Shown here piece after piece: positions 2,546-19,189 of a stretch of 20,258 nt of DNA. The notes below the pieces were generated by a model that worked only from the letters and a program-made list of their open reading frames with translations, ran no database searches and was not told where the DNA came from. The DNA comes from a virus, in the IMG/VR virus record IMGVR_UViG_3300050821_007957, positions 1 to 20,258 of that record, one strand, 5' to 3'. Within the stretch, counting starts at the first letter, position 1; each line of letters starts with the position of its first letter. A program made the position numbers and the translations under genes.

Positions 2546-3693
2546 GACATTCTCCTTGACGTGATGTTGGGTATATTGATCGCAGGCATTTTTGAACTCA
2601 TATCTTTGGGGCCTTGGTAGATTGTCCCCTCAGATGGGTGCCCCACATGGATGTCTTTGACCGTGGTAATTCCCCGTTTTGGGTGTACCGACAGGAAGAG
2701 CTGCGAAGCAGGGTGTGGCACCATTCTCCAATCACGGGAAAATTCAGATGGGCCGACCAGTGACGCTGAGCTATAACCCTCGTCCAGTTTATAGCTGCTG
2801 TGAAAATGACCGCAAATGATGTAGTCCAGCTGAATTCTTCTGGCTGCGTAATCCTGAGTTAGCCGTTTGAACCCCCGTGCGATGGTGTAAATAGCGCCAC
2901 CAAACCCCGTGCCGCCCCGCGACCCCATGCGGTCCCCGTGTGTGATAAGAAAGTTCCACCCATATAAGGACAAAAAGGCGTCGCCTGATGCAGGTGTATA
3001 GAATTTCGGGATGCGTTTTTGCTTACTTGACTGGTAGTATAATTCAATGAAATCGCCGACGAGATTGTCGTAGCTGGTCAGTGCGTGAAGTTTGCTTTCT
3101 GGCCGTCGTGTGGTCCTGCCGTGATTTCCAGGGATTACAATAATATCGATAGGGCAATCAAGTTTTTTAAGGAGCAGGTTAACCCCTGCAATAATGTATG
3201 CAACCACATCCTTGAGTGCTGGCAATGACAATAGCTCGTTGGTTTTTGTTAATTCTTCATGAATTTCACCCGAAATCATGTCACCGCCCAGAACTAGGAT
3301 CAGCCGTTGTGGGGGTGGTCCGGTCCAGTATGTTGTACTCAATTCAAGGGCTGACTTGAAGAACCTTTCGGCGCGTTTCCTAGCAATGTCAATGTTATAA
3401 GAATTAACCCCATCCATGGCATGAAGATCAACAACCTCACCCCATTGCCAATCTGTTGCTACAAGAATGATGGCTTCTGCGGTAAGTTGATGTTTGGTAC
3501 TTGGGATAAAAGATGGAGGTTCACGCATCGCCTCGGACAAACCTAGTACAGACTTACGGATTGTCCCCGACTTATGCATCATCAGATGCATTTCCTTAGC
3601 CTGTTTTTCAAGGACAAGGATGTACTCTTGCAGGGCGAGAATACGCCCCTCGTATTGTTGTTTGACTTCGGCGTAAGCCTGGTCTTTGTTCAT
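2542..3693 (-). CDS. calcineurin-like metallophosphoesterase
   Basis: A 383-residue protein with a short N-terminal coiled coil (about 5-40) and then a metallophosphoesterase core: T-D-W-Q-W-G-E (80-86), G-G-D-M-I-S-G-E (136-143), G-N-H-G-R (189-193), T-H-G-D (251-254) and G-H-F-H (295-298). These are the five metal-binding blocks of the calcineurin/Mre11 superfamily. The first block is D-W rather than the usual D-x-H. The substrate is unknown; a DNA nuclease or phosphatase role is possible. The start is ATG 3693 because GAGGAG sits 5 bases before it; a GTG two codons upstream abuts the SD. A perfect hairpin overlaps this SD. It is a second metallophosphoesterase directly after SbcD and is not a duplicate of it in sequence. 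Confidence 0.85.
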   Translation of the reverse strand: MNKDQAYAEVKQQYEGRILALQEYILVLEKQAKEMHLMMHKSGTIRKSVLGLSEAMREPPSFIPSTKHQLTAEAIILVATDWQWGEVVDLHAMDGVNSYNIDIARKRAERFFKSALELSTTYWTGPPPQRLILVLGGDMISGEIHEELTKTNELLSLPALKDVVAYIIAGVNLLLKKLDCPIDIIVIPGNHGRTTRRPESKLHALTSYDNLVGDFIELYYQSSKQKRIPKFYTPASGDAFLSLYGWNFLITHGDRMGSRGGTGFGGAIYTIARGFKRLTQDYAARRIQLDYIICGHFHSSYKLDEGYSSASLVGPSEFSRDWRMVPHPASQLFLSVHPKRGITTVKDIHVGHPSEGTIYQGPKDMSSKMPAINIPNITSRRMS

Positions 3694-3700
3694 GACCACT

Positions 3701-3720
3701 CCTCAACCGTTTGGTTGAGG
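3701..3720 (-). promoter_or_regulatory. 8-bp perfect hairpin overlapping the SD of the metallophosphoesterase gene
   Basis: Arms CCTCAACC and GGTTGAGG with a 4-base loop. On the transcribed strand the 3' arm ends in GAGG and runs directly into AG, so the GAGGAG ribosome site for ATG 3693 is partly inside the stem. It could hide the ribosome site or mark RNA processing. A terminator is less likely because no T-run follows. It lies in one of the few real gaps (3694-3763). Confidence 0.55.
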
Positions 3721-3763
3721 CATATCACAAAGATTATGTTGTTGCAATGACAGCAGTACCTCA

Positions 3764-4768
3764 CTATTTCAGTAATTCTTCCCCTACTTCTTTGATGTTC
3801 ACTGGTACCTGTTCGGCTTGGCAAAATCGTCCAAATATTTCTTTTGGTGTTCGATCGTGTATAACAGGTTGCTGGCCAGCAGCTCCCTTTGTCTTTTCGC
3901 CTGCAATTTCCAGTTCAACACCGAAAACCTGTACTTCCATCTCCCTGCAGGTGTCAAGTATGCGGCGTTTAACTGCAGCCCACTCCACAACCTCCTCAGG
4001 CGGTAACGTAACGATGATTTTGACATGATCACCTGCCTTTGCATCTACGAAGGCCATCATTTGTGGTGGGGCACTCCCCCTGATCCGTATGGTAAACTTC
4101 CTGAGACAAGGGAAGTGCAGATCGGTCATACTGTTGCCAATTAGCAACACCCTGGGTTCAAAGTCGTCACCAAACCGTACATGGTACGGCGCACCCACGT
4201 AGGTTAGCCCGCATTTGAGCGTCTGTGGGCTATGCACGTCGCCGCTTAGCCACCTAAGGGGCTGGCGAGCCTCAATCAGCGGGGCGCTCAGGCCCGACAA
4301 ACGGGCACCGGTTTCAGCCATAGCCCCGTCAAGGGTTTGGTGCATCATAACCCCAGGCATTTTATGCCCTACAAGGCCGCAGGCGCGGTCAAGGGCGGCT
4401 TGGTTTGGCTGGTGCGGTATCAGCACCACCCCCATGGCAGGGCCGTGCCCATACACAAAAGGCTTGACCACAAAGTGTATCCCTTCAATGGTACTCAAGA
4501 ACCGGAAAAAGGGGTTGTTGGGGTCAATGCCGTCATGATTGCCGCGAAGTATGTAGACCGGGGGCTTTAGCTTCAGCAGTTCATCTATGACCCGGTTGAC
4601 CAGGGCTGATGAATGATTGTCCTTGCGGTCAGTCAAATCACCCAGGATGAAAGTGGCGTCGACTTTGTGCTGTTTCTGCTGCTTGGCCAGCCAATCAAAG
4701 ATGGGCCAGCGGTAAGCATCTCGTGAGCGGTCACTCAGATGCAAGTCGGATGTCACAACCCACGTCAT
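3764..4768 (-). CDS. SbcD/gp47-like exonuclease subunit (Mre11 family)
   Basis: 334-residue nuclease partner of the SbcC-like ATPase. Metallophosphoesterase motifs run in order: S-D-L-H (7-10), G-D-L-T-D-R-K (43-49), R-G-N-H-D-G (75-80), M-M-H-Q-T (141-145) and S-G-D-V-H-S (175-180). A C-terminal capping/partner-binding region follows. The length matches phage gp47/SbcD proteins. The start ATG overlaps the stop of the 173-aa gene (ATGA). The SbcC partner is not adjacent: the second metallophosphoesterase and three small genes lie between them on the same strand. The complex is expected to trim double-strand ends for recombination-dependent replication. Confidence 0.9.
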   Translation of the reverse strand: MTWVVTSDLHLSDRSRDAYRWPIFDWLAKQQKQHKVDATFILGDLTDRKDNHSSALVNRVIDELLKLKPPVYILRGNHDGIDPNNPFFRFLSTIEGIHFVVKPFVYGHGPAMGVVLIPHQPNQAALDRACGLVGHKMPGVMMHQTLDGAMAETGARLSGLSAPLIEARQPLRWLSGDVHSPQTLKCGLTYVGAPYHVRFGDDFEPRVLLIGNSMTDLHFPCLRKFTIRIRGSAPPQMMAFVDAKAGDHVKIIVTLPPEEVVEWAAVKRRILDTCREMEVQVFGVELEIAGEKTKGAAGQQPVIHDRTPKEIFGRFCQAEQVPVNIKEVGEELLK

Positions 4769-5286: not shown

Positions 5287-5792
5287 GTTGGCCTCGTGGC
5301 GTATTGAACAAACTCATGCAGGGGGATTATACGCAGATTTTGCTTGGGCGCTATAAGCAGCGCCCGCTTGTCCAGCCCCAGTTCCCTGGACCCTATGTTG
5401 CACAGGCATACCATGGTCAGCATGCGGTTCTGCTTGGCAATGAGCAGCGGCAGCTTGCTGTAGGCAGCAGCCTGGACCAATGCCTCAAGCCAAAACTCTA
5501 TCAGCTTGCCTTTGCCGGTCAGCAGACCTAGGAAATTCAAGTCAGCGTAGAACTTGCACTCCACCAGAAACTTGCTGGCAAAGGCATAGCCTATTTCGTG
5601 CACACAGGAAAGATCGCCGGACTGGGCTGCCAACCGTTTGCCCTTGAGGGCTGCTACCGTAGAGCGCCCGCCTGACATTGCACTCCGCCAATACACGTCT
5701 TCCTGCTTGCCGTGGCTCACCCACAGCGACAATTCCCTACATACGTCTCTCTCAAACTGCGCCCCCTTTTGCTTGCCGCCCCCTTTACGCAT
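5283..5792 (-). CDS. PD-(D/E)XK nuclease-like protein, possible Holliday junction resolvase
   Basis: 169 residues. The pattern K-G-A-Q-F-E-R-D-V-C-R-E-L (Glu14), a Ser/Gly/Arg loop (M-S-G-G-R), G-D-L (Asp60) and V-E-C-K-F-Y (Glu78, Lys80) fits the E...D...ExK active site of PD-(D/E)XK nucleases such as archaeal Hjc-type resolvases. Its place directly after the RecA-like gene (8-base overlap) and before SbcD supports a recombination role, perhaps cutting branched intermediates. The family assignment is from motif reading. Another PD-(D/E)XK activity, for example a nicking or replication-repair nuclease, remains possible. The start ATG is followed by a basic, Gly-rich leader. Confidence 0.6.
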   Translation of the reverse strand: MRKGGGKQKGAQFERDVCRELSLWVSHGKQEDVYWRSAMSGGRSTVAALKGKRLAAQSGDLSCVHEIGYAFASKFLVECKFYADLNFLGLLTGKGKLIEFWLEALVQAAAYSKLPLLIAKQNRMLTMVCLCNIGSRELGLDKRALLIAPKQNLRIIPLHEFVQYATRPT

Positions 5793-6801
5793 ATTTGCTC
5801 CGTGTAGGCAAAAAGCTGGTTTCCACTACTGCCCAAGCCTGTTTGACTTGCTTGGACAATTGCTGGCGCTCCTTGTTGTAATCAGCATCTGACATCTCAG
5901 CAAGCAATTCAATATATTCTTTGGGCTTAACATCACCCTCTAAATGGCCCACTTCGTTGAGCCAGCGGACACTGGCCCCTACGTCATCAACGCCAAACCC
6001 GAAGATAAAGTCAAATGACGCTTCCCGGAACTGCAAGCCAACCTTGTTCTTCTTGACTTTGGCCAAGATCATCACGCCGTAGGTCCGCTCAATCTTGGCA
6101 ATAGTACGTTTCAGGGGCTTGACTGCTGACAGCCAGAAAATCTGTGAGGCATAGAAGTCCAGTGCCTTCCCGCCCGCACGGCGGTATTTCTCACCAAACG
6201 TGACCCCTATGTTCTCACGCACCTGACTGACCACCAGCAGTAATACCTGGCTCTGCTCAATTCTCCTGGCAGTTTTCCTGAAAAACTCACTTAACATCTT
6301 GGCCTTGGCCATGCCGTAACTGGCTTCACCTACGTCACGTTCCATCTCAGCTTCGTCACTGAGGGCGTCAAGGCTGTCCAGCACGTAAATGCCGGGTATT
6401 TTGGCTTTGATCAGGGTGTCGAGGAAGCTGTCAAAGTCACGGGCAAATTCTTCAACCGTCGTGATTGGTTTGTCTGGGCTACCAAAATTGACCTTTTCTA
6501 TTTGCAGACCCATAGCGGCAGCATAGCTGGAGTCAAATGCTGCTTCGGTTTCACAGTAGCGAACTGCCCCCTCAGGGTACTTCAGCAAGAAGTTGATCAT
6601 GGCTTCGGCAGCTAATGCTGTCTTGGCGGTGGATTTATCCCCGACAATATTGACGATACGCCCCATGGCATAGCCACCACCCAGGGCACAATCCAGCAGC
6701 GTGCAGCCGCTGGAAATGAAATTGATCCCCGGCTTTTCACTGACGAAGTAGGACGTTTTGGCTAGTTTAGGTCTTTCGCGCTTCTTTTGCCCAGCGTTCA
6801 T
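5785..6801 (-). CDS. RecA/UvsX-like recombinase
   Basis: Strand-exchange ATPase. In the 338-residue version: Walker A G-D-K-S-T-A-K-T (54-61), catalytic Glu in E-T-E-A-A-F-D (about 86), Walker B Y-V-L-D-S (139-143), S-Q-V-R-E-N (192-197, the Gln sensor), then R-R-A-G-G-K-A-L-D-F-Y-A-S, matching the GGxALxFYAS box after loop L2 of RecA. Only a short C-terminal region follows. The Walker A has Ala where Gly normally precedes Lys. The start is uncertain: ATG 6813 directly abuts the SD GGAGG (6814-6818), while ATG 6801 is 12 bases from it, long but workable, so I chose 6801. It follows the SSB gene and precedes the PD-(D/E)XK gene. Confidence 0.88.
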   Translation of the reverse strand: MNAGQKKRERPKLAKTSYFVSEKPGINFISSGCTLLDCALGGGYAMGRIVNIVGDKSTAKTALAAEAMINFLLKYPEGAVRYCETEAAFDSSYAAAMGLQIEKVNFGSPDKPITTVEEFARDFDSFLDTLIKAKIPGIYVLDSLDALSDEAEMERDVGEASYGMAKAKMLSEFFRKTARRIEQSQVLLLVVSQVRENIGVTFGEKYRRAGGKALDFYASQIFWLSAVKPLKRTIAKIERTYGVMILAKVKKNKVGLQFREASFDFIFGFGVDDVGASVRWLNEVGHLEGDVKPKEYIELLAEMSDADYNKERQQLSKQVKQAWAVVETSFLPTRSKYA

Positions 6802-6881: not shown

Positions 6882-7871
6882 TCAATCTTCCTCTGAGGAC
6901 TTACTACTCGCCTGATGCCGCTGCCTGATACGGTCCCTGATGCTGCCGCTTTTGGGGCCGGGATCAGCGGTCTCCTCAGCTACCCGTGGTCTGGCACGGC
7001 GTGAGGCAGGTGTAGGCTCAGATTCCTCCTCAGTTTCAGGGTGTTCCTCAGACTCAGCTTCTTCATCCGGCTCAGGCTTAGCTTGAACCCTTGGTCGTCT
7101 CACTTCATCACCATCAGTTCTGGATGGACGGCTACGGGGTGCAGGCTCAGGGTCCCCCTCATCTTTGGGTGCTGCCCCACCGCCAAACACCTTGGCGATG
7201 TGGTCATAACTGTAGAAGTTAAGGCAGTCAGGGATCGGGTTCTCAGTGATGTATTCCAGCCACTTCTCTTGCTTTTCCTCATCGCTAGACAATGGGCTGG
7301 TTTCCAGCAGCCGCATTTTGGCTGCCGGGTAGTCGGTTCCTGTCTGACCCTGCCCGGTTTTGTAGAAACGGATATCACACCCTTCATCAGGATGATCCAC
7401 TTCCACAATCTCACCAGTTTCTGGATCACGGGCAAGGTCGATGAATGCCTTATCCACTTTGGTGAAAGGTGCTGGGTACAGCATTGGCCCCTCATCCTCT
7501 TCAAGCCGGTCAATAACCCACATGAGGATGTGGTGAGCGGGGCTAAGTTCTTTGGCCAGGGCTTCATCGCCTTCTCGTTGAGCTTGTAGTCTGGCTTCAG
7601 CTATGGGGTCACGCCCTTGCCCCATCTTAGACAGCGATAGATAGCGATTGTTGTCCGGCCCGATCCTGTAGTTGACATAAATATCGTAGCCATAGTGCCT
7701 AGCCCCCTTCCAAGTAGGGGGCATGACGCGAATCACGTTCTTGCCGTCCTTAGCCTTGTAGAGCTTGTAGGCAGGCTTGATATAGCTGTCGAACTGGCCG
7801 CCACGCATATTGGCCCGTTCTGACCAGTCCTCTTTTGGCCTGCTTTTGTAGGTAAACTTACGTTCTGCCAT
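6882..7871 (-). CDS. gp32-like single-stranded DNA-binding protein
   Basis: 329 residues arranged like phage gp32-type SSBs. There is a basic N-terminus (F-T-Y-K-S-R-P), an OB-fold-like region from about 35 to 225 (N-V-I-R-V-M-P-P, Y-G-Y-D-I-Y-V-N-Y, H-I-L-M-W-V-I-D-R, C-D-I-R-F-Y-K-T-G-Q-G). A long disordered tail rich in Glu, Pro, Arg and Ser begins near 231 and ends S-S-E-E-D, the acidic tip such proteins use to recruit partners. I see no zinc-binding Cys/His set like that of T4 gp32. SD GAGGAG lies 6 bases before the ATG. The gene sits between the UvsY-like/60-aa genes and the recombinase, the expected neighbourhood for coating ssDNA during replication and strand exchange. Confidence 0.8.
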   Translation of the reverse strand: MAERKFTYKSRPKEDWSERANMRGGQFDSYIKPAYKLYKAKDGKNVIRVMPPTWKGARHYGYDIYVNYRIGPDNNRYLSLSKMGQGRDPIAEARLQAQREGDEALAKELSPAHHILMWVIDRLEEDEGPMLYPAPFTKVDKAFIDLARDPETGEIVEVDHPDEGCDIRFYKTGQGQTGTDYPAAKMRLLETSPLSSDEEKQEKWLEYITENPIPDCLNFYSYDHIAKVFGGGAAPKDEGDPEPAPRSRPSRTDGDEVRRPRVQAKPEPDEEAESEEHPETEEESEPTPASRRARPRVAEETADPGPKSGSIRDRIRQRHQASSKSSEED

Positions 7872-7888
7872 TGCCGGCTCCTCTCTGT

Positions 7889-8071
7889 TTAATTTTTATG
7901 TGCCAGTACATATGCCAAAGCCCCCAGAAGTCTCTTCTCCTGGTGACGCGACATGGTTTTTAAGGCATTCAGGATTGTGTGTGCCCTCTCCTCCCTTGCA
8001 CCGTTCTTCAGCCACTCAATGACTTTGTGATGGGCAAGGTGCCCATACAAATCCCACTCAGTTTCACTCAT
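7889..8071 (-). CDS. small protein, 60 aa, function unknown
   Basis: 60 residues, predicted helical, starting MSETEWDLYGHLAHHK and ending A-L-A-Y-V-L-A-H-K-N, with several His residues but no clear metal site. The start ATG overlaps the stop of the UvsY-like gene (ATGA). The SSB gene follows after 17 bases that carry the SSB ribosome site. Position suggests a role with SSB or the recombinase, which is inference only. Confidence 0.7.
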   Translation of the reverse strand: MSETEWDLYGHLAHHKVIEWLKNGAREERAHTILNALKTMSRHQEKRLLGALAYVLAHKN

Positions 8072-8544
8072 TTCTTCTTCTCCCTTTGTATAGCTAGGCG
8101 TTCCCGCTGTCGCTGGTAAACCATGGCATCAGTACTCTGTGTCGAACGCACTGAAGTCTGTTCAAAGTAGTTACTGGCATGCAGCCTGCCCAGGGTTTTC
8201 AGCATCTCACTTCGCTGAAAAAAGGAATCCTTCAGTGCGGCCAGCCGGTCAGCATGCTCCTTGGCCTCAAGCCACTCGGTGAATGCTTTCTGGTGCTTAG
8301 GATCAACAGCAACACGGCTTTTTATTGCTGTGTCCGTGGCTTTGGGGTCACCTCCACGCTGATAGACAAATACCTTGGCATCAATGGCGTTAAGCTCCTC
8401 CTTGAGGGCATCACGCTCAGCCACTGCTTGGGCGTAAGCCTCAGACACTTCAAAGAACAATGCAGGCTGCTGCATGACTTCATCATCCAGCGCCTGCTTG
8501 TCTATGGCCAGGTATTTCTTGAATTCGTCAATGTCCACGGTCAT
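8068..8544 (-). CDS. UvsY-like recombination mediator candidate
   Basis: 158 residues from ATG 8544, strongly helical. The order of parts (D-I-D-E-F-K-K-Y-L start, D-D-E-V-M-Q-Q-P-A-L-F-F-E, a coiled-coil A-E-R-D-A-L-K-E-E-L, a middle K-A-T-D-T-A-I-K-S-R-V-A-V-D-P-K-H-Q, and a second long helix ending in L-K-T-L-G-R-L-H) resembles T4 UvsY and phage proteins annotated near it. UvsY loads UvsX on SSB-coated DNA. The placement two genes before the SSB and three before the RecA-like gene fits. Sequence identity to UvsY is low by eye, so this is a structural and context guess. ATG 8544 is preferred over ATG 8568 because it overlaps the stop of the 48-aa gene as ATGA. Confidence 0.5.
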   Translation of the reverse strand: MTVDIDEFKKYLAIDKQALDDEVMQQPALFFEVSEAYAQAVAERDALKEELNAIDAKVFVYQRGGDPKATDTAIKSRVAVDPKHQKAFTEWLEAKEHADRLAALKDSFFQRSEMLKTLGRLHASNYFEQTSVRSTQSTDAMVYQRQRERLAIQREKKK

Positions 8545-9852: not shown

Positions 9853-12418
9853 CTTTATGACTCCAGAACTTGCCTATTTCCTGCATGCCGTACCAAGCAG
9901 GCCCAATTGATACCTTGACCGAGAGCGGCACATTCACCTCCTTATAAGGTGGGGTCAGCATGACCTTGTAGATGCTGGTGATGGCTTCCTCCAATAGGTC
10001 ATCATTGTCGGGGATAACGAAGGTGAGATCATCGTGAATGTTCAGCACCGGGTGCAGGTGCCACTGGCCAGTCTCAACAGCCATGGCGGACAATTCATTC
10101 ATGGCATTGCACACAATGTCGCAAGCAAAACTTTGGACTGGATGGTTGATGGCCTGGTTCCTGGTCAGCGGGTAGTGGTGACGCCTACCAGTCGGGGACG
10201 CTACCCAACCATGCTCGTAGTAATGCTGCATCAGCTGATCCTGCCATTTGGCCAGTCCGGTAAAGGTTTCCCAAAACTCATCCATCAAGTCGTCAATTAC
10301 ATCCTCAGGTGCATTCAGGTACCCGGCAATAGACTTGTTCTGTGCACCAAATATGGCAGGGAACACCAACTTATTCTTGATACGTGATCGGTCAGGGGGG
10401 CCAGCAGCTGGGTATTTTGCCGTGAATTTCTCAGCCCATTCCTGGTGAATGTCATAATCTTCCCAAAGGGCTTTAACCAAAACCTTGTCCTTGCTACACA
10501 TGGCGGCAGTGCAGCCTTCTAGCTGCCCGTAATCAAATGCCACCAATACGTGACCCTTTGGAGCCACGATCTGCTTCCTGACCCAGGCGTCTTTGCGCTG
10601 GGGGAAGTTTTGCATGTTAGGTTCGTCGCTGCTTGTGCGCCCGGTTTCAGCGAAGGTAGTATTGAAGTTACAATGTATTCTTCCGTCAGGGTAGACCAAT
10701 AACCCCCTTCCTGATTCCAAACCATCAACATAGGTGGATTTGAGTTTGGTTCTGTTCCGCAAATCCACAATAAGTTTGGCGAGAGGGTGTTTAATTCCAT
10801 CAAGTACATTTTTGTCAACTGACTTCTCCACGCTTTTGTACTTCAAGTAGTCTTTAAAGATGTTGAGGGCGTCTGGGCCAGCTGCGAAGTTGACTTCCCG
10901 GTGATCGGCTTTGTATTCACGCACCACAGGCAGAGCGTCAATCTCAGCTTCTATAGCAGCTATTTCCTTGCCCAGCTTGGCCTGGTTGCGCTTGACTTCA
11001 GCCTGGTCCACCAGCACCCCAAGGGTCTGCATCAAAGCAACTGAAGTCTGTCGGGGGAGTGCCTCAAGGTAGGCGTCGTGCAGTCCACGTTCCTTCAGCA
11101 GCTTGGTTTGGGCGTGCCAGAGCTTGAGGGTGTATTTGGTATCCAGGGCATTGTAAATCAGCATTTCACCCAGGTCAGACTTTGACATATCCTTCTTGTT
11201 CAGCTTCTTGAACAGGGACTTGTACTCAATGCCGAAGTGTTGCTTAACCAGGAACTTCAGGTTTTGGTAGGGGGCTCTTCTGTCGCCGTCGACATCACGA
11301 CCCTGCTTACCGCGCCGTTCATCAAGCACATGCGCTTGTAATTGTGTACACTCCCAGGAAACATGGCTAACAATCTGCCTCCCATACGTGTTAATAAACC
11401 ACTCGATTTCGAAGGGCGAATTATGCGCGACCCTAACCAATCGTTCATCTCTAAGTATCCCTTCAACCAAGCTTTCAAGTTTTCCTCTTTGCTGAACACT
11501 AAAGGATCGTCCTGGATGCGAAACTGCAAACGAGAAATTATGTGTTGCAGTTGAGATGGCGATAGACATAATGGCTGCCCCGTCACTGAAGGGTCGGAGG
11601 CCCTTGGTTTCAATATCAATGGCGATGGCGTCAGCCTTACCAGCATGATCAAGTAGCGCACATAGTTTTCCGTAATGACTGGGGTCTGATCCGTCAAAGC
11701 ATTGCACTCCTGATCTGATTTCTGGCTCAGTCTCAATATGCGTTGGTCTAAGATTCTGACTTGTGTTGCAAGCATGTCGGACATCAAGTCTAAAACAATG
11801 CCCAAGCTTCGAATTGAGGGGCTTTTTCTTGTCATAGGCAGTCCTCAAGATGAATGACGGGTGATAAGTGGGCATGAACCAGCATTCGTGGCTGCCTATT
11901 TTGACCGCGAACAGCCTGCCGCGCATCCCTGACAGATCACTGGAACCCAGTATAGCACCCAGTGGCACCGCCCCCAGGCCAACTATCAGCTTGGGCTTGG
12001 CCTGTTCTATGAATTTGACCCGTCTGGGCTGGCAACATTCTATTTCTTGCCAGACTGGTGCACGGTTTCCTTTGGCGTCGGTTGGTCTACAGTTACAGAC
12101 ATTGTCAAATGAAGATACAGCCAAGCTGCTACTAGGTATGCACTGCCGAAGTAGAGAACCACTGGGACCCGTAAGCGGTTTCCCTGTATTTTCATCCTCA
12201 TCCCTCCCTGGGGCTTCTGCCAAGAAATACACGTCAGTTTGACGTGCCAACGTAGGCAGCATTTTTGGGGTTATTATATCAGCCCTATTAAGCGGGCATG
12301 CGGCGCAGCCCAAGCGGCGCAGGGCAGCCACACTGGCAGCCTTGCGCGGGGCACCCATAGGCTTGCCAGCAGGCTTAGCGGCAGCCTTGCGGTCCTGCTT
12401 GCTGAAGAAAAATGACAT
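9845..12418 (-). CDS. uracil-DNA glycosylase / DNA polymerase I (family A) fusion
   Basis: An 857-residue protein from ATG 12418. Residues 38-200 form a family 4/5-like uracil-DNA glycosylase: C-A-A-C (38-41), E-A-P-G-R-D-E-D (68-75), N-C-R-P (Cys110), E-C-C-Q-P (Cys128/129) and Y-H-P-S (185-188). The four Cys positions fit a 4Fe-4S cluster. A 3'-5' exonuclease follows: D-I-E (268-270), H-N-S-P-F-E (332-337, Glu at the usual Asp), Y-N-A-L-D (422-426). Then comes the polymerase: motif A D-Y-G-Q-L-E-G (629-635), motif B F-P-A-I-F-G-A (686-692), motif C H-D-D (795-797; HDE in E. coli Pol I). There is no 5'-3' exonuclease. This is the probable replicative polymerase. The frame is open to TTG 12448; ATG 12418 is chosen because it starts one base after the stop of a 29-aa ORF. 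Confidence 0.92.
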   Translation of the reverse strand: MSFFFSKQDRKAAAKPAGKPMGAPRKAASVAALRRLGCAACPLNRADIITPKMLPTLARQTDVYFLAEAPGRDEDENTGKPLTGPSGSLLRQCIPSSSLAVSSFDNVCNCRPTDAKGNRAPVWQEIECCQPRRVKFIEQAKPKLIVGLGAVPLGAILGSSDLSGMRGRLFAVKIGSHECWFMPTYHPSFILRTAYDKKKPLNSKLGHCFRLDVRHACNTSQNLRPTHIETEPEIRSGVQCFDGSDPSHYGKLCALLDHAGKADAIAIDIETKGLRPFSDGAAIMSIAISTATHNFSFAVSHPGRSFSVQQRGKLESLVEGILRDERLVRVAHNSPFEIEWFINTYGRQIVSHVSWECTQLQAHVLDERRGKQGRDVDGDRRAPYQNLKFLVKQHFGIEYKSLFKKLNKKDMSKSDLGEMLIYNALDTKYTLKLWHAQTKLLKERGLHDAYLEALPRQTSVALMQTLGVLVDQAEVKRNQAKLGKEIAAIEAEIDALPVVREYKADHREVNFAAGPDALNIFKDYLKYKSVEKSVDKNVLDGIKHPLAKLIVDLRNRTKLKSTYVDGLESGRGLLVYPDGRIHCNFNTTFAETGRTSSDEPNMQNFPQRKDAWVRKQIVAPKGHVLVAFDYGQLEGCTAAMCSKDKVLVKALWEDYDIHQEWAEKFTAKYPAAGPPDRSRIKNKLVFPAIFGAQNKSIAGYLNAPEDVIDDLMDEFWETFTGLAKWQDQLMQHYYEHGWVASPTGRRHHYPLTRNQAINHPVQSFACDIVCNAMNELSAMAVETGQWHLHPVLNIHDDLTFVIPDNDDLLEEAITSIYKVMLTPPYKEVNVPLSVKVSIGPAWYGMQEIGKFWSHKDV

Positions 12419-14419: not shown

Positions 14420-14619
14420 TACAACGTGTCCTTTGCACCTATTGCTTTAACAAGGGACTCAAATACCCGATCAAGTGCTTCTGTTGGGAGGAAAATTGAA
14501 GTGTGGTAACTCACTTCTTCACCTACATTTTCGCCAAATGTTATCCGTGCTCCATCTTTGTACACACTTACTTGAGCTAAAGAGGCATGAAGCGCCACCA
14601 CTTCAATTGGCCGCTTCAT
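14419..14619 (-). CDS. small protein, 66 aa, function unknown
   Basis: 66 residues starting MKRPIEVVALHASLAQVSVYK, with alternating hydrophobic segments suggesting a small beta-rich fold and a C-terminal helix (L-D-R-V-F-E-S-L-V-K-A-I). ATGA overlap with the 277-aa gene upstream and TAATG overlap with the methyltransferase downstream support it as real. No family recognised. Confidence 0.7.
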   Translation of the reverse strand: MKRPIEVVALHASLAQVSVYKDGARITFGENVGEEVSYHTSIFLPTEALDRVFESLVKAIGAKDTL

Positions 14620-15449
14620 TTGCCTTTCCCCTTCTTGGAAAGATCATCTTTGTGGGTCAGCTTGAGAACACCGTTTTCCAGCTTCTCAATCCGGTGACCA
14701 TTCTTGTCCAGCTTCCGCAAGATGACGTAGTAGTTGTCACCCAGTTCAAGGTTTGCGTCGCGCATGGTGCAGCCCTTTTCAAACATCTTCAGGGCCATGC
14801 TGGTTTTGGTGCCTTCAGTCACGCCGTAGCGGTCCTTCGTGCCGGTGATTTTCTTGTAGTCCGGCTCTTTACCCGGCTTGTTCTTGGGCTGGATGTCTGG
14901 CTTGCCCTTTTTCTTTTTGAGGTACTTGCCGCCAGCCCCTTTCCTGGGTTTGCGGGGCTTCTTAGCTGGCTCAGCCTCCTCAGATTCAGGGACCTCACCA
15001 GCAGGCTCAGCTCCTTCCGGTTCAGCACTATCACCTTCAGGCTCAACTTCTTCAATTGTTTCTTCCTCAGGCTCTTCTTCAGGCGTTTCTTCATCCACTT
15101 CGGCGGGTTCACTTTCTTCACTATTAGTCTCCTGGGCTGGTGCCCGGCGTAATGGGTTGCGTGGGTCGGTCAATGGCAGATCGGTGGTTTCTTCCACTGT
15201 ATCAGGATCTTCGGCACCTTCAGGTTCCGCATCCGTGAAGTCAGGTATTTCCCGCTTCTTGTTTTTGGCCTCAACTGCCTCAGTTAGCCAGTCATAGGTT
15301 TCCTCCTGCATGGAATCCCATGTTTTGTCATCCTTGATCTTCTCAACGCACAGTACCAGTTCTGACAGGTACTCCTGATGGTCCTCAAAGTCCTCAGGGC
15401 TTTTCTTGAATTTGAACAACTTGACCAGTTCTGCTTCAATCGCACTCAT
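14616..15449 (-). CDS. acidic-linker protein with C-terminal DNA-binding-like domain, 277 aa
   Basis: Three parts are visible. Residues 1-70 are a helical domain (E-L-V-K-L-F-K-F, T-W-D-S-M-Q-E-E-T-Y-D-W-L-T-E-A-V-E-A). Residues 71-160 are a very acidic Glu/Pro/Thr linker, followed by a Lys/Pro-rich basic stretch (163-200). Residues 205-268 are compact: D-R-Y-G-V-T-E-G-T-K-T-S-M-A-L-K-M-F-E-K-G-C-T, then V-I-L-R-K-L-D-K-N-G-H-R-I-E-K, a helix-turn-helix plus hairpin look like a winged helix. It could bind DNA or a replication partner. AAGGAG sits 5 bases before the ATG. Function unknown. Confidence 0.75.
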   Translation of the reverse strand: MSAIEAELVKLFKFKKSPEDFEDHQEYLSELVLCVEKIKDDKTWDSMQEETYDWLTEAVEAKNKKREIPDFTDAEPEGAEDPDTVEETTDLPLTDPRNPLRRAPAQETNSEESEPAEVDEETPEEEPEEETIEEVEPEGDSAEPEGAEPAGEVPESEEAEPAKKPRKPRKGAGGKYLKKKKGKPDIQPKNKPGKEPDYKKITGTKDRYGVTEGTKTSMALKMFEKGCTMRDANLELGDNYYVILRKLDKNGHRIEKLENGVLKLTHKDDLSKKGKGK

Positions 15450-15479: not shown

Positions 15480-15848
15480 CTAGCCTACGCCTACCGGGAA
15501 ATGCCAGTCAATGGCAAAACCGGATTGTTCCAAATGATTTGCATATGCCCAAGCATGCCAGAAATTGCTGAAGATGTAGCCTCTTGTAATAGAACTTTCT
15601 AGATAGTCGGAGGTGGGGTTTATTCTTAAGTGGAAAACGCTTACGGGCCTTGAATTCTCAAGAGTCCAATCCCCAAGCGCTCCATTATCATGGTCAGAAA
15701 CTTTAGTATCCGTATTCAATCTAATTTTGAAGACGTTGCCTTCTTCATTGACCAAATACAGATTGCTACCTTTCTTAAACCTTTGGTCAAGCAATTTCTC
15801 AAAGCTCTCTTTGCCCTTTATGGCCCCATTAGGGTAGAAGTTGTTCAT
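15480..15848 (-). CDS. 122-aa protein with YxFxNxWHAxAY motif (paralogue 1)
   Basis: 122 residues: N-terminal F-Y-P-N-G-A-I-K-G-K-E-S-F-E-K-L-L, a middle of alternating strands, and near the end G-Y-I-F-S-N-F-W-H-A-W-A-Y-A. The same ending (N-Y-F-F-T-N-Y-W-H-A-Y-A-Y) and a similar P-x-G-A-I start occur in the 112-aa protein at 17075-17413, so the two are paralogues from one phage family. AGAGG lies 7 bases before the ATG, and the ATG overlaps the stop of the zinc-ribbon gene (ATGA). No function known to me. Confidence 0.75.
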   Translation of the reverse strand: MNNFYPNGAIKGKESFEKLLDQRFKKGSNLYLVNEEGNVFKIRLNTDTKVSDHDNGALGDWTLENSRPVSVFHLRINPTSDYLESSITRGYIFSNFWHAWAYANHLEQSGFAIDWHFPVGVG

Positions 15849-15997
15849 TGATCAACCTCTTTCCTCTTAACCCTACTTGATCTCGGTCTGAGATTTCCCA
15901 TGCCGCAATCTTTATCGTCGCAGGTCGCAGCAATATCTTCAGCTTCGGTGATAGTCTTCGCTATCTTACCGCAGTCGGGGCACCGAAAGGTAGGCAT
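15845..15997 (-). CDS. zinc-ribbon small protein, 50 aa
   Basis: ATG 15997 to TGA 15845-15847. It begins MPTFRCPDCGK, with a second Cys pair in A-T-C-D-D-K-D-C-G, giving CxxC...CxxxxC, enough for one zinc ion, then a basic tail (R-P-R-S-S-R-V-K-R-K). AGGAG lies 7 bases before the ATG, the gene overlaps the primase end by 32 bases, and its stop overlaps the next ATG. Such mini zinc ribbons are common in phages; the role is unknown. Confidence 0.75.
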   Translation of the reverse strand: MPTFRCPDCGKIAKTITEAEDIAATCDDKDCGMGNLRPRSSRVKRKEVDQ

Positions 15998-16922
15998 TGA
16001 TCAACTCCTGTACTTGTTCCTTAGACAGTTCCCCTGGGTCTTTGACCCCTTCAGGGAGGTGCCCCACGGTGACGGTAGATGAAGGCAGCCAATCCTTGGC
16101 AATAAAGGCCGGTTCCACCGCATCACGGTCAAACAAGATTACAGTTTTCTTGAAGCGGTTTCTGCGGCTGTTCAGCAGCACAATCTGCTCCATGCTCAAG
16201 CTGATGCCAAACCCACAGGTAGCCCTGACCCCCTGACCCCTGCCGTAGTAGTCCAGCTTCATGGCGTCAAACACACCCTCAGTGATGAACAGCAGCTTCC
16301 CACCTTCCATGAGATCATCCTCATTGAAGATGGTTTCCTTGACCCGCTTGGAACTCAGGTAGCGGGGTGCAAACACCGGGTTGCCCAAGGCACGGCCAGT
16401 CCAGGCAATCAGGCTGCGGCGCTTATACAACGGTACAATCAAGCGGTCCTTGAACGGACCGGTTAGACAACATTGCAGTTTGTATTGGTGGATTGCAGTA
16501 CCTGGGATGTCAAAGCCTCTATCCTGAAGATAGTTCCAAAACCTTTCGGTACTGCTTTGTGGCTTGATTGGCCGCAATTCAGGCAATGCCTCAGGCTCAG
16601 CAGCGCCTGGCGTCGAATCCGCAATTGGCGACAATTCGCCTAGCTGGTCTGGATCGCTTCTATTGTACTGGTCGACAATTATCCTGGCCTGATGCTGGGA
16701 ACAACCCAGCAAGTAGCCAATCAGGTAGGTGGTTGAGTGGCCGCGATGCTCAGGGTTGCGTAAACAACCCCAGCTTCCTCCGATCAGATTGATGCCCAAG
16801 TGCTGTGAAGGGTCTTCGTCCCCACACCACGGGCATTTAATGCTGATCTCACCACGGGCCGTGTTTGGCCCGCGTGAAACCCACTCAATCTGATTGTCAG
16901 TTAGGAAACCTTGCCAATCCAT
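15966..16922 (-). CDS. DnaG-type primase (CHC2 zinc finger plus TOPRIM)
   Basis: 318 residues. The N-terminal zinc-binding domain has C-P-W-C-G-D-E-D-P-S-Q-H and G-S-W-G-C (Cys30, Cys33, His41, Cys53). A low-complexity linker lies at about 90-120. The catalytic region follows, with F-K-D-R-L-I-V-P-L-Y and A-P-R-Y-L. The TOPRIM domain has F-I-T-E-G-V-F-D-A (212-220, Glu215) and L-F-D-R-D-A-V (263-269, Asp265/Asp267). There is no helicase domain, so it would work with the separate DnaB-like helicase as in T4 gp61/gp41. It is much shorter than bacterial DnaG (about 580), lacking a long C-terminal helicase-binding part. The ATG follows the stop of the 50-aa CxxC gene by three bases. Confidence 0.88.
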   Translation of the reverse strand: MDWQGFLTDNQIEWVSRGPNTARGEISIKCPWCGDEDPSQHLGINLIGGSWGCLRNPEHRGHSTTYLIGYLLGCSQHQARIIVDQYNRSDPDQLGELSPIADSTPGAAEPEALPELRPIKPQSSTERFWNYLQDRGFDIPGTAIHQYKLQCCLTGPFKDRLIVPLYKRRSLIAWTGRALGNPVFAPRYLSSKRVKETIFNEDDLMEGGKLLFITEGVFDAMKLDYYGRGQGVRATCGFGISLSMEQIVLLNSRRNRFKKTVILFDRDAVEPAFIAKDWLPSSTVTVGHLPEGVKDPGELSKEQVQELINAYLSVPRLR

Positions 16923-16925
16923 GGT

Positions 16926-17078
16926 TTAGACGTAACTCCCGCAAGTTGGGCAGTTTCTACGTATCTTAGCGTTGATCATTTCCCACTGTTGCATCCATTG
17001 TGATCTGCTGATGTAACTGGGCCGCCTGATGGTCTGGCCCTCGATGATCACATGATCTGTGTAGACATCTATTTTCAT
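16926..17078 (-). CDS. small protein with C-terminal CPTCG, 50 aa
   Basis: ATG 17078 to TAA 16926-16928. It starts MKIDVYTDHVIIEGQTIRR, has S-Q-W-M-Q-Q-W-E-M-I-N, and ends R-N-C-P-T-C-G-S-Y-V. One CxxC only, so metal binding would need a partner or a dimer. GAGGA lies 7 bases before the ATG, the ATG overlaps the stop of the 112-aa gene (ATGA), and the primase begins three bases after its stop. Clear gene by context; function unknown. Confidence 0.7.
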   Translation of the reverse strand: MKIDVYTDHVIIEGQTIRRPSYISRSQWMQQWEMINAKIRRNCPTCGSYV

Positions 17079-17413
17079 AGATCTGTCCTCAGTTTGTAGG
17101 CATAAGCATGCCAGTAGTTGGTAAAGAAGTAGTTCCCCATCGGTTCATCAATACTGAAACGTCCCAGTTCAACATCTTCCGAGTGATCAGGTAGGTCATC
17201 GAAAAATACGTATTCTAAGTGCCTTGAACCCATGTGTGCCCTGCGCACATCAACCACAAACAGCATTGCTGGGCCATAAATTGTTAAACCATCTGACGCT
17301 GGGTTTCCAGTAGTGATAACTGCGTAGAGCTTGTCTCTGGAATTGATGGCCTCTTTTAGATCCTTCCTTGTAACTATTGCCCCTTCAGGCACGGTTTTAT
17401 ATATCTGATCCAT
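17075..17413 (-). CDS. 112-aa protein with YxFxNxWHAxAY motif (paralogue 2)
   Basis: 112 residues from ATG 17413, preceded by GGAGGAG with 7-base spacing. The N-terminus has V-P-E-G-A-I-V-T-R-K-D-L-K-E-A-I. The C-terminus has G-N-Y-F-F-T-N-Y-W-H-A-Y-A-Y-K. It is a paralogue of the 122-aa protein at 15480-15848. The frame stays open upstream to 17587, but that part lies inside the helicase gene in another frame and looks random, so it is excluded. The start overlaps the end of the helicase gene by 17 bases. Function unknown. Confidence 0.75.
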   Translation of the reverse strand: MDQIYKTVPEGAIVTRKDLKEAINSRDKLYAVITTGNPASDGLTIYGPAMLFVVDVRRAHMGSRHLEYVFFDDLPDHSEDVELGRFSIDEPMGNYFFTNYWHAYAYKLRTDL

Positions 17414-18941
17414 CAAGTAACTCCTCCAGTAGTGATTTGCCTGCCAAGTTGGCAGCGTGCATGCGCTGGTCTGCTGTGCCTTTGACCAGCAGATCATAGA
17501 TAAACACCCGTTGCTGCTGCCCGGGACGCCACAGCCTGGCTTCGCCTTGCTTGCGGTCAATGGGCGAGTCAGGCTGCTCATACACAATCATGTAGTTGGC
17601 GTGTTGCAGGTTCAGCGAGCTGGACCCGCTGCGCCAGTTCAGCACCAGCACCCGGCACGCGGGATCCGATTTAAATCGCCGCAATTCGCCAATGGGGTCT
17701 TTACTACCACCCCAGACGCGGGCGCATGGTACCCCCAGCTTAGCAAGGCGATCTGCAAGGACACCATTGCTATAGATGAAATGATGAAAGATAACACATT
17801 TGTTGTCAGGCGGCATATCCTCGATAAGTTGAACAACTGCTTCAAGTTTTGGGTTGTCGTCAAACTGGACCTGTAGTTTGTCATTGTCTTCCCCCTTCAG
17901 TGTCATGAAGCCTGATGATAGTTGACGAAGTTGCAGGTAGCTGGACTCAACTACCTGGTACTGTTTGCCTTTTATAGCATTACGAAGTTCATGCATCGCC
18001 CGTTGCATGTAACCAGAACTATCTTTTGGCTGGGGCAGGCTACGCTGCACATACTCCTTGCTGGGCATGTCGGCAAATTCATCTATGGTGTACCTGATGC
18101 TACGGTGCTTGATGAGACGCTGCAAATCTGGCATCAGCCTCTGCTTGAACGTGTAGTCAAATCCACCCCAGTAGTTTTTCTTTTCCTTGAAGAAAGCACC
18201 ACGATACAGGCCCAAGGTTTCACCTAGTGTCTCACCAAAATCAATCAGGTAGAACTGCGCCCACAGGTCCTGCAGATCACGGCCAAACGGGGTGCCGGTC
18301 AGGCCCAAGACATACTCACTGGTAGATGAAATGGCCCTGCACATGCGGTAGGTCAGGGCTGCGTGGTTCTTGCAACGGTGAATTTCATCACATATCAGGA
18401 TGTCAAAACCTTTGAAATAGTCCCTGATCTGGGTGGCATTTATGTCCCACTTCTTCTTGCCATTTTTCGTGGTCACCGGGTAGCTGACCATAGCCACAGC
18501 CGACTGATAGCAGATCACAAACAGGTCCCCTGAATTACTTAGTTGACTAAGGTTCTCTGCGGTGGTGCCCAACAGGGGCACACATTTGAGGTCGGGGGCG
18601 TGCTTGGCCACTTCGTCAACCCAGGTGCTTACACTGGTAATGTATGGCACAAAGACAATGGACCTTGGCTTCTTGCCACACTGCTTCAGGTACTTCAGCA
18701 GCATCAGGCTTAGCATTGTCTTGCCACCGCCCATGTCCCAAAAATACATGAAGCGTTTAAGCTCCAACGCCAACAACAGCCCAGCCTTCTGGTGTGCCCA
18801 CGGTTTCATGCCGTTGAAGTCCGGCCTGGGCCTGAGCATCTTCAACTCAGCGTCAAGCTTCTCAACCGGTATGGTTTTAAGCCAGTCATGAGACCCCAAG
18901 TCCCTTGATAGAAAATCACGTACTGCTTCTTTGCTAATCAT
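17397..18941 (-). CDS. SNF2-family DEAD-like helicase/translocase
   Basis: 514 residues from ATG 18941. Q-like P-W-A-H-Q (47-51), Walker A D-M-G-G-G-K-T (69-75), D-E-I-H box (185-188), motif III T-G-T-P-F-G (215-220), motif V L-N-W-R-S-G-S-S-S-L-N-L-Q, and motif VI Q-G-E-A-R-L-W-R-P-G-Q-Q (465-476), the SNF2 hallmark. It is likely a dsDNA translocase that remodels protein-DNA or branched DNA during replication or recombination, in the manner of T4 UvsW only by broad role. The frame is open to 19061, but ATG 18941 overlaps the preceding stop as ATGA and has AGGGG 5 bases upstream, while the extra 40 residues are Ala/Arg/Gly-rich shadow of the upstream coiled-coil gene. Confidence 0.9.
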   Translation of the reverse strand: MISKEAVRDFLSRDLGSHDWLKTIPVEKLDAELKMLRPRPDFNGMKPWAHQKAGLLLALELKRFMYFWDMGGGKTMLSLMLLKYLKQCGKKPRSIVFVPYITSVSTWVDEVAKHAPDLKCVPLLGTTAENLSQLSNSGDLFVICYQSAVAMVSYPVTTKNGKKKWDINATQIRDYFKGFDILICDEIHRCKNHAALTYRMCRAISSTSEYVLGLTGTPFGRDLQDLWAQFYLIDFGETLGETLGLYRGAFFKEKKNYWGGFDYTFKQRLMPDLQRLIKHRSIRYTIDEFADMPSKEYVQRSLPQPKDSSGYMQRAMHELRNAIKGKQYQVVESSYLQLRQLSSGFMTLKGEDNDKLQVQFDDNPKLEAVVQLIEDMPPDNKCVIFHHFIYSNGVLADRLAKLGVPCARVWGGSKDPIGELRRFKSDPACRVLVLNWRSGSSSLNLQHANYMIVYEQPDSPIDRKQGEARLWRPGQQQRVFIYDLLVKGTADQRMHAANLAGKSLLEELLDGSDI

Positions 18942-19189
18942 CTCAGCCCCTGGCATAAATGGCCAATCAACAAGGCATCGGTAGCAATCCGTGCTTCTGC
19001 TTCCCCCAGCCGTTGCTGCAGCCGCTCGATCTCGGCGTGAGTTTCCACTAGCTGCGCCCATTCTGCTTTGCGGAGGCTGTTAAGTTCCGCCTGCAGCCGC
19101 TCGATCTCGTCGGCGGCCTCGTCGCACAGAGTGTTGTCGCTTGGAACCACGGCATGACGCAATCGCAGCCGCTCCACAATGTCGGTCAT
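18938..19189 (-). CDS. small coiled-coil protein, 83 aa
   Basis: 83 residues beginning MTDIVERLRLRHAVVPSD. The rest is a heptad-like coiled coil with A-A-D-E-I-E-R-L-Q-A-E-L and H-A-E-I-E-R-L-Q-Q-R-L. Proteins of this type (MTDIVERLR...EAADEIERL) are frequent in phages and of unknown function. ATGA overlaps join it to the 75-aa gene upstream and the helicase downstream. It shares the E-I-E-R-L element with the 75-aa neighbour. Confidence 0.75.
   Translation of the reverse strand: MTDIVERLRLRHAVVPSDNTLCDEAADEIERLQAELNSLRKAEWAQLVETHAEIERLQQRLGEAEARIATDALLIGHLCQGLR

Follow-up and report, generated by a model that had tools for sequence, protein, structure and literature searches.

The window analyzed here is the whole of a 20,258-base virus record, and it contains the replication part of a phage genome with nearly all of its genes on the minus strand. 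Genes for SbcC- and SbcD-like proteins, a RecA-like protein, a clamp loader, a Pol I-type DNA polymerase and a sliding clamp were identified together with those for a methyltransferase, a primase, an SNF2 helicase and a DnaB-like protein (the names of genes without a profile match were assigned by inspection). The part of the window around two small proteins, A and B, contains the following features:

17397–19061, minus strand: SNF2-family helicase (Pfam SNF2-rel_dom, E = 1.5e-18).
17075–17413, minus strand: family member B, 112 aa, ATG start, MDQIYKTVPEGAIVTRKDLKEAI...NYFFTNYWHAYAYKLRTDL, ORF confirmed.
17096–17119, minus strand: codons of the C-terminal motif of B, NYWHAYAY (DNA pattern match).
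16926–17078, minus strand: 50-aa gene with one CPTC pair, which in relatives directly follows the SNF2 gene without B.
15966–16922, minus strand: primase (PHROG 47, E = 8e-33).
15845–15997, minus strand: 50-aa zinc-ribbon-like gene between the primase and A; not in this position in the relatives L005 and L008, where paralog G follows the primase.
15480–15848, minus strand: family member A, 122 aa, ATG start, MNNFYPNGAIKGK...RGYIFSNFWHAWAYANHLEQ..., ORF confirmed.
15543–15566, minus strand: codons of the C-terminal motif of A, NFWHAWAY (DNA pattern match).
14616–15449, minus strand: 277-aa acidic, E/P-rich protein downstream of A, the ortholog of which follows G in relatives.

The gene order is thus SNF2 helicase, B, CPTC gene, primase, zinc-ribbon-like gene and A. 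This agrees with the preliminary description, which had placed the primase and two small Cys-rich genes between A and B; the term Cys-rich was generous for the CPTC gene, which possesses two Cys residues. The start of the SNF2 gene used in relatives is an internal ATG at 18941. The B frame opens within the tail of the SNF2 gene and closes with a stop that overlaps the start of the following gene (CTATGAAA). The GC3 of the A gene is 0.48, whereas the window's large replication genes range from 0.56 to 0.62. Further, the gene of the 277-aa protein is conserved downstream of the slot occupied by A or G, and its best PHROG match is weak (phrog_38529, E = 0.001).

The two ORFs had been reported to share a C-terminal motif, and this was borne out at the positions listed above: BLASTP aligned A with B, the alignment being confined to the motif (YIFSNFWHAWAY and YFFTNYWHAYAY; 8/12 identical, E = 3e-5). 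A DNA pattern for N[FY]WHAxAY matched exactly two sites in the window and none in 100 dinucleotide-preserving shuffles. In IMG/VR the pattern occurred in only 3 contigs among 2.9 million, and the motif strings had no match in the literature searched. The three contigs belong to the same phages as those found by a scan with the primase, whose primases are 76–81% identical to that of the window. Relatives were reached only via the primase and motif scans; A or B alone as query against IMG/VR yielded none.

Pattern and profile searches, together with the reading of ORFs in the relatives, revealed six further paralogs, C–H, giving eight paralog types in total. All six are present in both the 96-kb and the 63-kb relatives. 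When an HMM was run over the six-frame ORFs of the two contigs, exactly C–H were found in each and no others scored above noise (in the 96-kb contig, 19.9–21.6 kb was covered by the pattern and profile searches instead). The six paralogs are as follows:

C: 113 aa.
D: 92–99 aa, overlaps C, variant motif NWWLAWARSL.
H: 107 aa.
E: 84–88 aa, overlaps H, immediately precedes the DnaB-like gene.
G: 94 aa, immediately follows the primase.
F: 94–99 aa, about 10 kb upstream of C in the 96-kb contig, with the nearest other member about 10 kb away.

The proteins of the family are 84–122 aa long and, apart from their conserved ends, approximately 15–35% identical. The C-terminal motif of the family, N-[YFW]-W-x-[AF]-x-A, is present in both A and B, and in all eight paralogs the motif lies in frame near the C-terminus. 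The His of the motif varies, being Tyr or Phe in F, Leu in D and Phe in H. A catalytic His is argued against because this residue is not invariant. B, A and E are acidic; the one strongly basic member is F. The 96-kb relative also holds two other groups of small ORFs that are paralogous (L048, 12663–13673 (+) and 15964–16536 (−); BLASTP E = 2e-5 to 3e-10), which suggests that duplication of small genes is general in this phage.

The relationship among the paralogs was examined with leave-one-out HMMs against 4222 ORFs. C, A, E, B, F, H and G were recovered (E = 8e-12 to 6e-4) and no shuffle scored as well; D was marginal, with E = 1.1 over its full length and 0.04 on the motif. On the motif alone, A and B were recovered with E = 1.8e-7 and 1.2e-10, respectively. 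When the motif was cut away, C was still clear (5e-7) and G, H and A exceeded every shuffle, or every shuffle except one, whereas B, D, E and F did not stand alone. Outside the motif, then, D and B are linked to the family by weak sequence homology. The preliminary description had made the kinship of A and B depend on alignment outside the motif and on the predicted folds. C, A, G and H do align with each other in the N-terminal part, whereas A and B compared by themselves align only at the motif. With the motif removed, only the P-x-G-A element aligned between the group of A, C, G and H and B (hhalign E = 0.0035, calculated for this one comparison, but probability 9%).

The N-terminal element had itself been described as common to A and B (P-x-G-A-I). 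In a leave-one-out block test of P-x-G-A-[ILV] and the following helix, A, H and C outscored every non-family ORF among the 4222; the element is weaker in B, which four non-family ORFs among the 4222 equaled, so that the claim holds clearly for A and less firmly for B. The N-terminal element of G was not resolved by the ungapped block, and D, E and F are without the full PxGA form. A second block (GETVKVY-like) is common to C, D and E and is weaker in F.

We predicted the structures of G and B using AlphaFold2, both from the same 11-sequence alignment; note that a common alignment can push folds together. The model of G had a pLDDT of 73 and a pTM of 0.63, and that of B a pLDDT of 68 and a pTM of 0.64. 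At moderate confidence the two models agree in a strand-helix-strand ... strand-helix arrangement, the last helix opening with the motif. The PxGA element forms a short strand in each model, and a helix and another strand come after it; a further short strand, made of the residues that precede the motif Asn, runs into the C-terminal helix, with Asn and Trp at the helix start. Judged from this position, the role of the motif Asn and Trp may be structural rather than catalytic. For the family as a whole, the outcome that would have spoken against kinship (no alignment outside the motif, and different folds) was therefore not observed, the fold comparison covering B and G. We concluded that the A–H family is real, with A as a sound member and B included on the strength of its motif, its N-terminal element and its predicted fold. 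A fold shared throughout the family may be suggested at the confidence of these models.

Within the databases that we searched, from which records closely resembling the window may have been hidden, the family is undescribed and restricted to this lineage. Pfam-A, PHROGs v4, NCBIfam 20 and PADLOC-DB gave no significant family match (judged by the curated cut-off where there is one); the best scores were 14.6 bits for TIGR04313, against a cut-off of 40, and E = 0.31 for phrog_23361. Searches of INPHARED phages returned weak matches only and no relative of A–H outside the clade. Matches of B by tblastn in Acinetobacter phages of that collection (E about 1) were attributed to chance, since they fall in the N-terminus of a putative glucosyltransferase and lack the full motif. 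Weak matches of C in Klebsiella and other phages (E = 0.4–8) were not counted as kin, and a profile search of the Klebsiella phage genome was negative. Plasmids, searched with one family member as query, gave no match, and two profile scans of GTDB genomes gave 25 and 67 stretches with the motif pattern and no relative. Further, no member of A–H was found at E ≤ 10 in phages with primases at most 49% identical to that of the window, including the whole records of 13, nor was one found in L009 (49% primase), a 9.5-kb fragment; absence from fragment records is weak evidence. Foldseek searches of BFVD and PDB with the models of B and G gave no match at E ≤ 0.001 (none below 0.08 for the B model), and their VIA matches were at noise level (Z ≤ 5.4).

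Comparison of the window with its relatives revealed that the family genes come and go as units. In L005 and L008 the stop of the SNF2 gene directly overlaps the start of the 50-aa gene (CTATGAAG) with no B between them; in the window B lies exactly between these genes, and its own stop makes the same CTATGA overlap. After the primase, L005 and L008 possess G, and the window possesses the zinc-ribbon-like gene and then A. The sequence GTTGATCAATG occurs at the start codons of A and the zinc-ribbon-like gene (window 15846–15865 and 15995–16014) and of G (L008 10933–10943), and the C-terminal tail of the primase changes exactly at GTTGATCAATG, from QELINAYLSVPRLR in the window to QELINGQT in L008. 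From these junctions, it looks as if whole genes were exchanged at start codons. Thus the family genes are overlapping, exchangeable cassettes that are gained and lost among related phages.

Other differences among these genomes were noted. At the polymerase/clamp-loader junction, L005 (17530–17883) and L008 (17626–18123) carry two different HNH-type homing-endonuclease-like genes (identified by inspection), and the window carries a 72-aa ORF instead. The polymerase and the clamp loader of L005 and L008 are unusually divergent (776/868 and 318/339 aa identical, respectively). In L008, the segments 3301–3900, 5301–5900, 7501–8300 and 10901–11300 are approximately 100% identical in DNA to L005 and alternate with divergent stretches. 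This pattern is a mosaic arising from recent exchange that covers C, H and G.

In the comparison of L005 with L008, nonsynonymous and synonymous changes numbered 16/3 in E, 20.5/8.5 in F and 11.5/9.5 in D, compared with 32/100 in the reference DnaB-like, SNF2 and primase genes (Fisher test against those three genes: E, 7e-7; F, 4e-6; D, 5e-3); this signal comes from one genome pair, in which recent exchange confuses rate estimates. In E, pN/pS exceeded 1, and the replication genes are conserved (dN/dS 0.06–0.14). The nonsynonymous changes of D, E and F were concentrated in the middle segment (39, versus 9 in both ends; p = 2e-7) and the synonymous changes were not (11 in the middle; p = 0.27), with the borders between middle and ends chosen after the alignment was seen. 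Between the two genomes C, G and H hardly differ, so the variation is not found in every member and segments have been exchanged recently. Other small genes nearby vary as well, for example an unrelated 70-aa gene (L008 2707–2919; 16.5/8.5), and thus the signal is not unique to the A–H family.

We tentatively favor the view that A–H constitute an undescribed family of small binding proteins, not enzymes, that are aimed at different or changing host or defence targets and whose copies are gained, lost and swapped. The predicted architecture would open with a short strand (P-x-G-A-[IV]), its helix and a further strand; after the variable middle would come another short strand and the C-terminal helix, which starts at the invariant Asn and carries N-[YFW]-W-x-A-x-A. 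The two ends may form one scaffold that displays the variable middle. Genes arranged as translationally coupled cassettes in the replication operon would be produced early in infection, and the proteins would act by binding host or defence proteins that differ or change from member to member. Most likely, they would be accessory proteins that serve in host interaction or against host defences, and not factors of core replication. We prefer proteins that bind host or defence targets to fixed parts of the replisome because the proteins are small, do not look catalytic, are lineage-restricted, are encoded in cassettes, and combine conserved ends with a variable middle.

The main competing view is that these proteins are replication accessory factors with the phage primase, SNF2 helicase or DnaB-like helicase as their binding partners, the paralogs tuning or recruiting parts of the replisome. 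The placement of A or G after the primase, of B after SNF2 and of E immediately ahead of the DnaB-like gene, in overlapping or tightly spaced frames, would suit such factors, and a replication role accords just as well with the location amid replication genes. The family is, however, not conserved together with the replisome genes: relatives with a 76–81% identical primase are without B and have G instead of A, L009 and more distant relatives yielded no member, F is remote from the other members, and D, E and F vary fast whereas the replication genes are conserved. The preliminary description had suggested an undescribed, expanded family in a replication operon, for host takeover or as replication accessories; the expansion stands with eight paralog types, but its replication-accessory part is weakened by the unconserved position, the absence of B from relatives, the distance of F and the variation resembling more that of host-interaction genes, so that host takeover or anti-defence would be the better guess. 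We consider the replication view possible but doubtful. It is also unlikely, more so than a replication role, that the genes are dispensable duplicates under weak constraint, spreading within the clade with little function, their variation reflecting relaxed selection. Gain, loss and swapping, tandem copies, the other tandem small paralogs of the same genome and the pN/pS of E would be expected of such duplicates, but every copy is intact, conservation of the ends extends over paralogs that otherwise differ widely, and the concentration in the middle holds for nonsynonymous and not for synonymous changes.

Two further readings concern what the shared parts are. That A–H are small nucleic-acid-binding proteins with an SH3/Sm-like barrel fold and an added C-terminal helix appears improbable. 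On a second look at the Foldseek list, the B model aligned with an SH3-like barrel of designed origin (61 residues, 2.8 Å, Z = 5.2; noise level) and with Hfq/Sm proteins (Z = 3.8–4.9, likewise noise level), but models without a clear match commonly score Z = 7–8, no Foldseek match of the B model reached an E below the value given above, and the G model had no SH3/Sm-barrel match; the acidity of B, A and E argues against nucleic-acid binding. Least credible of all is that the shared stretch is a DNA element, a recombination or replication site translated by chance. Over 36 nt, A and B share 78% identity, but third codon positions vary among members (AAT/AAC, CAT/CAC, GCT/GCC, GCA/GCC), the protein motif is kept in frame in every paralog, and a reversed control pattern had no match; the codon pattern largely refutes this reading.

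If the preferred reading, binding to host or defence proteins, is correct, a more specific form of it can be entertained as a speculation: an expandable set peculiar to this phage clade, built on a single scaffold whose ends are fixed and whose face varies, and duplicated and swapped at start and stop codons inside the replication operon, each copy neutralizing a different host protein. In any case, a family with a diagnostic motif and up to six paralogs per phage genome was absent from the libraries searched. Its conserved ends and variable middle suggest, in testable form, where orphan phage proteins of this sort bind, and its members could be screened jointly against host defence systems.

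Among known systems, the Mardecavirus-type replication module of Vibrio phage MAR10 and Edwardsiella phage vB_EpM_ZHS resembles the window in its primase/helicase, sliding clamp, Pol I-type polymerase, clamp loader, RecA and SbcC/D-type nuclease, and MAR10, like the window, also carries an SNF2-type helicase. However, the polymerases are 30–33% identical, and these phages possess no member of A–H at E ≤ 10. The small beta barrels of the Sm/SH3 type (Hfq, Sm) share with the B model a helix followed by four or five strands; they differ in that their scores are at noise level, A–H has an extra C-terminal helix, and the likeness is not seen in the G model. T4-like and other phages carry small lineage-specific families of early genes, among them host-takeover and anti-defence genes. 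These early-gene families are alike in that they encode small orphan proteins, many per genome, that are gained and lost as cassettes beside replication genes; they differ in that no sequence or fold match to A–H was found among such proteins in the libraries searched, and none of these contained the conserved C-terminal helix motif of A–H. Thus, expanded families of small accessory phage proteins are a known kind, and what is new is the A–H family itself.
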